From: Arcobacter sp.
Lineage (GTDB): Bacteria > Campylobacterota > Campylobacteria > Campylobacterales > Arcobacteraceae
DNA length: 59,042 bases
Direction of reading: 5' to 3'
Assembly: GCA_020048055.1 (NCBI GenBank)
Contig: JAIFNA010000017.1
Location: 1-59,042 of the forward strand
Within the stretch, counting starts at the first letter, position 1. Each line of letters starts with the position of its first letter. Both the position numbers and the translations under genes were made by a program. Positions 4,065-5,593 of the stretch are shown in pieces. The notes below the pieces were generated by a model. The model did no database searches and was not told the origin of the DNA. It saw only the letters and a program-made list of their open reading frames with translations.

Positions 4065-4808
4065 CTATTCTCCTTTAAGAATTTGTCCACGGTATGCAAT
4101 GATACCTTGTCTATAATTTGCAACTTGTTTCCAACCCATATCTTTAAGGACCTCTTGACAATAAGCACTTCTGCTCCCTGTTAAACAATAAAGAATAGTT
4201 GGTTTTTCTTTTTGGTTTTCAATTTGTTCTAATTGGTTATAAAAAGATGTTGTTGGAATCAGATAATCAGTCCCTGCAATTCTAGCTTGTTTCCACTCCA
4301 TCCACTCTCTAACATCAATAAGATTAAAATCAACCATGCCAAGTTCTCTAGCTTCTAAAAGTGCTTCAATCTCATCACCATCAAGTTCAGGGTGAGTTAA
4401 AATAACCTCGCATTCCTCTTTTGTAAGCCCTCTTGAATGACTATGTGCAACCTCTTCAGCTTTTAATTCAATCGCATTTGCTTTTGCATATTCAGGTGTG
4501 CAAAATATCCCACAATGACAATGCCCATCATCTGGTATTTCGTGCTCAATTGCAGGTTTACAAGGGCAGATTCTATTATCAGCTTCTTTTTGCTCCTCTT
4601 TAGTTTTACCAATTACCATAAAACATGGACAATATCTTTTATTATATATGAGCTTATTTCTCGTAAGTCCCATAATTACACCCTCATTAACATCTTCTAT
4701 CGGATTGTAAACCCAACCTTTACTTGCACATACTTTATCTGTGAATATTTTTGTTTTCTCTTGTTCATCTAAAAATTCTTGTGAATTCATATCTATTTTA
4801 ATAAGCAT
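4065..4808 (-). CDS. Ferredoxin-thioredoxin reductase catalytic domain fused to a rhodanese domain
   Basis: Residues 1-110 carry the FTR beta-subunit cysteine signature: CPC at 60-62, CPC at 81-83 and CHC at 97-99, plus Cys103. In characterised FTRs these residues ligate a 4Fe-4S cluster and form the redox-active disulfide. Residues 145-247 form a rhodanese-like domain, with the LIDVREWMEWKQARIAGT entry motif and a catalytic-type Cys208 in LYCLTGSRSAY. The fusion suggests thiol/persulfide redox chemistry driven by ferredoxin, but no substrate can be read from the sequence, and no separate FTR alpha subunit is encoded nearby. The start ATG has a good Shine-Dalgarno (AGGGAG). It lies between an orphan histidine kinase and rplI. 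Confidence 0.88.
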   Translation of the reverse strand: MLIKIDMNSQEFLDEQEKTKIFTDKVCASKGWVYNPIEDVNEGVIMGLTRNKLIYNKRYCPCFMVIGKTKEEQKEADNRICPCKPAIEHEIPDDGHCHCGIFCTPEYAKANAIELKAEEVAHSHSRGLTKEECEVILTHPELDGDEIEALLEARELGMVDFNLIDVREWMEWKQARIAGTDYLIPTTSFYNQLEQIENQKEKPTILYCLTGSRSAYCQEVLKDMGWKQVANYRQGIIAYRGQILKGE

Positions 4809-4837: not shown

Positions 4838-5593
4838 TTATTGATTAAAAGGTATATTCTTTGGTACTTTAATCGTAAAACAAGCGCCATAATAACTATT
4901 TTGATTTAATTCAAACTGAATATTTTTTGCACTCAAAGATCCTTCAAAATGATTTTCGATGATATTTTTTGACATCGTCAAGCCAATTCCAGTTCCACCA
5001 TTATCCTCTTTTGTTGTAAAGTGATGGTTAAAAATAATTGGTAAAATATCATCATTAATACCACCTGCATTGTCATAGATATCAACAGTAATATCATTTT
5101 TTGTATCTTTAACCACAATATTGATAATTTTTTCTTCAACACCACTTTCTAAAATTGCATCTTTTGCATTATTTAAAATATTTATAATCACTTGAGCAAA
5201 TTCTCTACCATATCCAAAACATTCAACGTCTATATTTGAAAAATATTTGTATATTTTTATCCCTTTTGCTTTTAAAAGTGGCTCTATAATTGATTCAATT
5301 TGTTTTATGTTATCATCAATTTTAAAATAAAATTTAATCTTATCCTCTTTTAAAAAATCTCTAAAATCATCTATCGTGTCAGATAAATAAATAGTTCGAT
5401 TAATGATGTTTGTTAGTGAATTATCAAATATTTCATCATCTATTAGTCCAAGTTCTTTTTGAAATTTTAGCCCTGTTGCTTCAGCATTTATAGCGTTTAA
5501 TGGCTGTTTGAATTGGTGGATAATATTTTCAAACATACTTCCAAGCATTAGTAACTTTTCATCTTGAGTACTGTATTTGCAATTTGTTTTCAT
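4838..5593 (-). CDS. Soluble histidine kinase without a sensor domain
   Basis: 251 residues with no membrane segment. The phosphoacceptor is probably His27 in ENIIHQFKQPLNAI. The ATPase part has the N box (IINILNNAKDAI), G1 box (DNAGGI) and G2 box (GGTGIGL). There is only about 20 residues before the His helix, so any signal must come from a partner protein or from the dimerisation domain itself. Its ATG overlaps the ispH stop codon by four bases (ATGA), so it is in the pheS-pheT-aroA-ispH operon. No response regulator is adjacent; its target is unknown. Confidence 0.85.
   Translation of the reverse strand: MKTNCKYSTQDEKLLMLGSMFENIIHQFKQPLNAINAEATGLKFQKELGLIDDEIFDNSLTNIINRTIYLSDTIDDFRDFLKEDKIKFYFKIDDNIKQIESIIEPLLKAKGIKIYKYFSNIDVECFGYGREFAQVIINILNNAKDAILESGVEEKIINIVVKDTKNDITVDIYDNAGGINDDILPIIFNHHFTTKEDNGGTGIGLTMSKNIIENHFEGSLSAKNIQFELNQNSYYGACFTIKVPKNIPFNQ

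Follow-up and report, generated by a model that had tools for sequence, protein, structure and literature searches.

A gene fusion of a ferredoxin:thioredoxin reductase catalytic domain with a rhodanese domain in Campylobacterota: a candidate ferredoxin:persulfide reductase

Introduction

What does the catalytic domain of a ferredoxin:thioredoxin reductase (FTR) do when it is joined to a rhodanese domain in a single chain? The question is raised by a gene of Arcobacter sp. located in a 59,042-nucleotide stretch of DNA, contig JAIFNA010000017.1 (hereafter the window). The original prediction for this gene, made from the letters of the window, proposed a ferredoxin-driven persulfide or disulfide reductase in a non-photosynthetic bacterium. 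Both domains are already known, as are reductases that carry a fused rhodanese; the combination of FTR with rhodanese looks new. No description of it was found in the open literature, in a search to which the spelling with a colon was inaccessible and for which subscription papers lay mostly outside the scope. In the available passages of selenoprotein papers, FTR and rhodanese are treated as separate families with no mention of a fusion (PMC2398784, PMC13188914, PMC9312934), and the passages from papers on sulfur disproportionation mention rhodaneses and neither ferredoxin nor thioredoxin (PMC12998232, PMC9948710). Likewise, FTR/FDR enzymes are described without a rhodanese fusion in the part of PMC7278568 at hand, and an excerpt of PMC11237513 reports, for Halobacteria, a fusion between rhodanese and NirA. 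In PMC12422968 the abbreviation FTR has another meaning.

Results

Domain organization and catalytic cysteines

The fusion gene lies at positions 4065 to 4808 on the minus strand, with ATG at 4808 and the stop codon TAG at 4067-4065, and encodes 247 residues. The coordinates and length originally predicted were correct, and the strand, left out of that prediction, is added here together with an invariant seventh cysteine and the wide occurrence of the fusion in the phylum. Direct reading of the sequence revealed AGGGAGA, resembling a ribosome-binding site, 7 bases 5' of the ATG. The FTR catalytic domain (FeThRed_B) was located at 4446 to 4760 on the minus strand (residues 17-121; Pfam E 1.5e-34; 118.7 bits against the curated cut-off of 22), and the Rhodanese domain (PF00581) at 4092 to 4355 on the minus strand (residues 152-239; E 1.1e-12; 48.7 bits against the cut-off of 22.2). 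Both scores are well beyond chance, confirming the presence of the two domains in one chain. A search of the whole genome with FeThRed_B gave a match at exactly 4446 to 4760 as its single FTR domain, and eight rhodanese domains were counted, that of the fusion included.

The predicted set of cysteines was found in this chain: CPC at 60-62, CPC at 81-83 and CHC at 97-99 in the FTR domain, and Cys208 in the rhodanese active-site loop. This loop reads C208-L-T-G-S-R213-S, with the Cys-x4-Arg pattern that is of the sulfurtransferase type; the loop of Cdc25 and arsenate reductase is longer. In the alignment, the six FTR cysteines (60, 62, 81, 83, 97 and 99) line up with those of solved FTR chains. 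At the position of the seventh cysteine of the FTR domain, C103, the solved chains shown have Leu (chloroplast-type FTR) or Val (4tpu, 7pwe). By transfer of the FTR assignment through the alignment, we take Cys60, Cys81, Cys83 and Cys97 to be the cluster ligands and Cys62 and Cys99 to be the redox pair. Neither a pyridine-nucleotide-disulfide reductase (FAD/NAD) domain nor a rubredoxin domain was matched by Pfam in the window protein at E up to 1. Membership in the FtrB double-selenoprotein family (NF041072) was rejected, with a score of 51.2 bits against the NCBIfam cut-off of 160 and no in-frame stop before the end.

Predicted structure

The AlphaFold2 model, built on an alignment of 31 rows, was confident per residue (mean pLDDT 92.4), with a pTM of 0.65 at which the placement of the domains is not settled. 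The original prediction presupposed a proper rhodanese active-site loop; in the model it has the normal length for a sulfurtransferase, with strand 204-207 before it and helix 212-223 after it. Foldseek matched the FTR fold of 7pwe (E 2.5e-4), 7c3f (E 8.4e-4; TM-score by target 0.62) and 1dj7 (E 9.6e-4; TM-score by target 0.67), and also many rhodaneses, including those of CoADR-RHD, NADH-dependent persulfide reductase (NPSR) and persulfide dioxygenase-rhodanese. The best 50 matches by VIA-align were rhodaneses throughout, the FTR chains coming from Foldseek. Over approximately residues 138-247, CoADR-RHD, GlpE and NPSR were aligned at Z 13.5-14.7, among them CoADR-RHD 3ict (Z 14.7, rmsd 1.7, 97 residues aligned) and NPSR 3nt6 (Z 13.6, rmsd 2.2, 93 residues aligned); several plain rhodaneses equalled or exceeded these Z scores (up to 16.2, with rmsd 1.2 over 98 residues).

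Conservation of both catalytic sites

The cysteine set, which the original prediction supposed to be shared by orthologues, was indeed invariant. C60, C62, C81, C83, C97, C99, C103, C208, G211, S212, R213 and S214 were identical in all of 31 aligned fusions from genomes of the phylum. A scan of genome contigs confirmed 508 relatives, and in the best 80 of these the open frame covered both domains in every case and the same residues were invariant; position 98 was His in 78 and Arg in 2. The named loci had been selected by patterns containing C60/C62 or C97/C99/C103, and thus C81, C83 and C208 provide the unbiased test of conservation. Stand-alone FTRs shared C103 in 25 of the 26 cases checked, the exception (L164) belonging to a third FTR class described below, in which three other members checked also lacked this residue.

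Named carriers among the best 80 of the 508 relatives include Arcobacter and its relatives, Sulfurospirillum, Sulfurovum, Sulfurimonas and Sulfuricurvum. The fusion was also present on contigs titled Helicobacter pylori (L073; 89% identity to the window protein), Desulfosporosinus (L074; 90%) and Planctomycetota (L120; 59%); these titles, of metagenome bins, are probably wrong.

Distribution in Campylobacterota

Genome counts were made within Campylobacterota. The FeThRed_B domain was detected in 100 of 298 sampled genomes, and the intact fusion, identified with a full-length fusion profile and cross-checked, in 86; the 14 FTR-positive genomes outside this set are G013, G029, G031, G036, G039, G046, G060, G073, G095, G166, G203, G223, G278 and G283. 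In the family of the window itself, 19 of 20 sampled genomes carried the fusion. The remaining 198 genomes gave no FTR match, and these include all of family f3 and all of family f2 except G166, presumably relatives of Helicobacter and Campylobacter.

The original prediction pointed to the lack of an FTR alpha subunit nearby, and this observation can be extended: the variable (alpha) chain PF02941 was detected in none of the 298 genomes of the phylum, that of the window included, and the control search recovered Synechococcus elongatus as the sole positive of 14 control genomes. The missing subunit carries little information, however, because the variable chain is stated, in the passage available, to be exclusive to oxygenic phototrophs (PMC9025218).

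A phage or mobile origin of the fusion was also considered and rejected. Among viral contigs, 69 pattern matches yielded no confirmed relative of the fusion, none was confirmed in phages, and no anti-phage family was matched; of five plasmid records, just one covered most of the query.

Genomic position of the fusion gene

In the window, the gene rplI for ribosomal protein L9 (3618 to 4064, minus strand; Pfam Ribosomal_L9 N and C domains) follows the fusion gene. The two genes are probably co-transcribed, because the ATG of rplI directly abuts the stop codon of the fusion with a gap of 0. On the other side, 29 bases upstream of the fusion, lies a gene for a sensor histidine kinase-like protein (4838 to 5593, minus strand; HATPase_c and a weak HisKA); a relative of this kinase was found near the fusion in just one other stretch (L049) among 41. 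The product of the kinase-like gene has 251 residues and no evident sensor domain, and the gene shares 4 bases with the one preceding it.

Among the same 41 stretches, namely the window and 40 loci, rplI was a direct neighbour of the fusion in at least seven and argG in at least five, lower bounds since the gene picker chose antisense frames at some loci (for instance L046 and L051). The order argG-fusion-rplI was observed at L045, L047, L063 and L064 at least. Pfam identified argG as Arginosuc_synth and the HslU/HslV-type neighbours as AAA_2 and Proteasome. Neighbours vary between families, and those identified are mostly housekeeping genes and not sulfur genes.

We examined the rplI site in ten genomes lacking the fusion. 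The gene argG directly adjoined rplI in G013 and G020, a rhodanese alone stood between argG and rplI in G060, and an FTR alone stood beside rplI in G166, where argG was not seen; the remaining six sites showed neither. This pattern suggests that the gene is old and its location fixed, and that some lineages have lost either all of it or one half. Since lone halves occur at this site (G060 and G166), neither domain strictly requires the other.

Split genes and stand-alone FTRs

In seven genomes FTR and rhodanese were found as separate neighbour genes on the same strand, at loci L154 (G203), L155 (G218), L056 (G220), L152 (G224), L153 (G263), L156 (G283) and L071 (G223); four of these genomes (G218, G220, G224 and G263) have an intact fusion elsewhere. 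The catalytic Cys and the loop Arg were kept in all seven split rhodaneses, and the loop glycine was replaced by Asp in L153, L056 and L156 in the alignment. An eighth split locus was found on a plasmid of Sulfurovum mangrovi (L192), where FTR and rhodanese are annotated as two adjacent genes. Along positions 16420-24012 of L192, the pair is followed by genes for DapE, a thioredoxin-like protein, a histidine kinase, an Fe-S protein, NrfD and a molybdopterin protein, the last consisting of two overlapping frames that were searched separately.

NrfD is the anchor of the polysulfide-reductase type. A gene for an Fe-S subunit was located a few genes downstream in three of the eight split loci, followed by an NrfD gene in two of them: L192 carries Fe-S, NrfD and molybdopterin genes, L154 an Fe-S gene and the start of NrfD, and L152 only a cut Fe-S gene. 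A sulfur-type operon was not seen in the other five, as L153 and L056 have other genes after the kinase, L071 has none among its gene clusters, and the stretches of L155 and L156 end too early to show downstream genes. This context is too weak to prove a link with sulfur operons.

Stand-alone FTRs occur in many genomes of the phylum sample. In six genomes, a stand-alone FTR gene immediately precedes the fusion gene with an overlap of a few bases, at L044 (G004), L059 (G006), L058 (G028), L168 (G040), L167 (G085) and L061 (G248), and the two products may work as a pair or heterodimer. At two family f5 loci, conserved genes downstream of the fusion (L044:8816-10948 and L059:7896-8186) encode a DUF7897 protein and proteins of 97 and 109 residues without a Pfam match at E up to 0.01. 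In another genome of f5 (G039; L157, 3850-4893), a family that is presumably Nautiliaceae, an intact stand-alone FTR gene is followed by a broken FTR-rhodanese gene that reads as two overlapping frames.

A single origin of the fusion was not supported. The tree of 57 FTR domains, from 31 of the 86 fusions and 26 stand-alone proteins, requires five state changes, and well-supported branches make at least two of these unavoidable. The bootstrap was still unsettled, a single row has a very long branch, and the tree gives no firm number of fusion or splitting events.

A third class of FTR, of 207-225 residues, was observed in a few Campylobacterota, at L053:7197-7871, L060:6738-7382, L069:6975-7595 and L164:3281-3946. 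Of three proteins scanned, one showed a weak similarity to TusA (E 0.0096) in its C-terminal stretch. The class was not counted as support for an FTR joined to a second sulfur carrier, as no cysteine stands at the place of the TusA cysteine and the model was poor (pLDDT 55.7).

Discussion

The best explanation of these data, to which we assign a probability of about 0.5, is that the fusion would act in the cytosol as a self-contained ferredoxin:persulfide (sulfane-sulfur) reductase. It is observed that both catalytic sites are intact, conserved together and linked, and with this the original prediction of a persulfide or disulfide reductase agrees; the [4Fe-4S] cluster, the ferredoxin donor, the sulfane-sulfur substrate, the direction toward HS- and the transfer between the sites are those expected from membership in the two families. 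In the proposed cycle, polysulfide, thiosulfate or a low-molecular-weight persulfide would donate a sulfane sulfur to Cys208, and the resulting Cys208-S-SH would be attacked by reduced Cys62. Cys99 would then resolve the Cys62 persulfide with departure of HS-, and ferredoxin would re-reduce the Cys62-Cys99 disulfide via the cluster, delivering two electrons one at a time. The 2-oxoacid:ferredoxin oxidoreductases of the genome would in turn reduce the ferredoxin; the genome of the window gave two matches to POR gamma and 20 to the Fer4_7 domain, the latter mostly within larger proteins, and these are possible ferredoxin sources. The outcome would be release of H2S and clearing of sulfane sulfur from the cytosol. 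More tentatively, and at less than even odds, this would be an undescribed activity, in which the built-in rhodanese takes sulfane sulfur and the iron-sulfur/dithiol FTR frees sulfide with low-potential electrons, old in much of free-living Campylobacterota and perhaps making use of C103 near CHC.

Several observations were counted in favour of a persulfide reductase. The two sites are kept together in the 31 aligned fusions and in the best 80 of the 508 relatives, and the fusion recurs in 86 of the 298 genomes. The same linkage is found independently as adjacent genes in seven genomes and on the S. mangrovi plasmid, with Fe-S genes (and NrfD in two) downstream in three of the eight split loci. 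Moreover, the structural matches of the modelled rhodanese include CoADR-RHD, NPSR and persulfide dioxygenase-rhodanese.

The FTR catalytic chain (PF02943; 1dj7, 2pu9 and 7bzk) has the same domain and the six cysteines CPC-CPC-CHC, and the fusion differs from it by the invariant C103, the C-terminal rhodanese and the lack of a variable chain in the phylum sample; in the heterodimeric FTR of plants and cyanobacteria the variable chain PF02941 is present. In 4tpu and in 7pwe, the latter a glutaredoxin/ferredoxin disulfide reductase of Desulfotalea, an FTR domain is likewise fused to a redox or thiol domain, but the partner is rubredoxin or glutaredoxin instead of rhodanese; the source of 4tpu is presumably Methanosarcina acetivorans. 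Persulfide dioxygenase-rhodanese (5ve3-5ve5) also joins a rhodanese to an enzyme that uses persulfide. Its partner domain is oxidising and of the metallo-beta-lactamase type, of which Pfam detected no match in the window protein. CoADR-RHD and NPSR (3ict, 3nta and 6pfz), with rhodanese domains matching at Z 12.4-14.7, resemble the fusion in combining a reductase with a C-terminal rhodanese and are expected by analogy to work alike, whereas their electron half is FAD/NADH and that of the fusion is the iron-sulfur FTR. The fusion would most likely be the iron-sulfur equivalent of fusions in which a flavin NADH:persulfide reductase is joined to rhodanese. NPSR is the closest working analogy, and the cysteine of its C-terminal rhodanese is described, in the part of the source available, as the initial sulfur acceptor ahead of the flavin domain (PMC7969121).

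Other observations were counted against a persulfide reductase. The predicted model, at pTM 0.65, does not fix the geometry between Cys62 and Cys208. Either domain can occur without the other, as in G166, G060 and the stand-alone FTRs. The neighbours are mostly housekeeping genes, and no sulfur-type operon was visible in five of the eight split loci. The carrier genera are not all known for sulfur respiration. In the passages available from a transcriptome study of sulfur oxidation and reduction in Sulfurovum, two rhodanese genes, which may or may not be related to that of the fusion, are up-regulated with S0 oxidation and the word ferredoxin is absent (PMC10045233).

The chief alternative is a ferredoxin:thioredoxin (or ferredoxin:disulfide) reductase for dithiol-switch regulation, in which the rhodanese would be a docking or sensing module. 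Membership of the FTR domain in its family is clear, and the genome of the window has two thioredoxins over the cut-off among seven matches. The carrier genera are probably not all reverse-TCA autotrophs, which weakens such a regulatory role; a part of PMC9025218 supports it with the view that FTR arose in microaerophiles in which thioredoxin regulates the reverse citric acid cycle. In the best 80 of the 508 relatives, however, the catalytic loop of the rhodanese is invariant, and a pure docking module would not need this. A thioredoxin reductase over the curated cut-off was found in 237 of the 298 genomes, so that a second general thioredoxin reductase would mostly be unneeded; at E up to 0.001, related flavoproteins included, all 298 genomes gave a match, and with up to seven candidates scored per genome, absence cannot be read from these counts. 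The best match in the genome of the window had E 8.7e-105, and two fusion-bearing genomes of its family, G255 and G272, gave weak best matches (E 3.7e-24 and 1.8e-15, with 7 of approximately 30 candidates scored) that favour thioredoxin as the target. With a thioredoxin reductase also present in most genomes, we rank thioredoxin regulation below persulfide reduction and regard it as a serious though less likely reading.

A role in biosynthesis, with the rhodanese handing over sulfur for Fe-S assembly or for thiolation of tRNA or cofactors and the FTR giving electrons for reductive release at the acceptor, is a further serious rival, though less likely still. Sub-cut-off NCBIfam matches of the rhodanese domain to the C-terminal rhodanese domains of MoeZ, MoeB and ThiI, and the direct coupling of the gene to rplI in the window, with rplI a neighbour in at least 7 of 41 stretches, would fit such a role, but the 198 genomes without an FTR match include all of f3 and all of f2 except G166, which still need these pathways, and no gene for thiolation or Fe-S assembly was present among the minority of neighbours that were annotated. 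Rhodanese-fold domains can have roles other than sulfurtransfer, yet the idea that Cys208 is a redox partner, the FTR keeping an oxidoreductase or arsenate-reductase-like site reduced, is very improbable, given the short sulfurtransferase-type loop and the high structural matches that include sulfurtransferases and persulfide enzymes.

A ferredoxin:persulfide reductase would bear on a problem of this phylum. Campylobacterota are key players in the turnover of zero-valent sulfur at vents, and its intracellular handling is at issue. In the passages available from PMC10045233, the mechanism of zero-valent sulfur use by Campylobacterota is described as not clearly understood, and cytoplasmic sulfur reduction as seemingly crucial in the phylum. 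If the proposed reading is true, the fusion would link the low-potential carbon metabolism of Campylobacterota to sulfide release, and FTR chemistry would extend beyond thioredoxin to sulfane sulfur.
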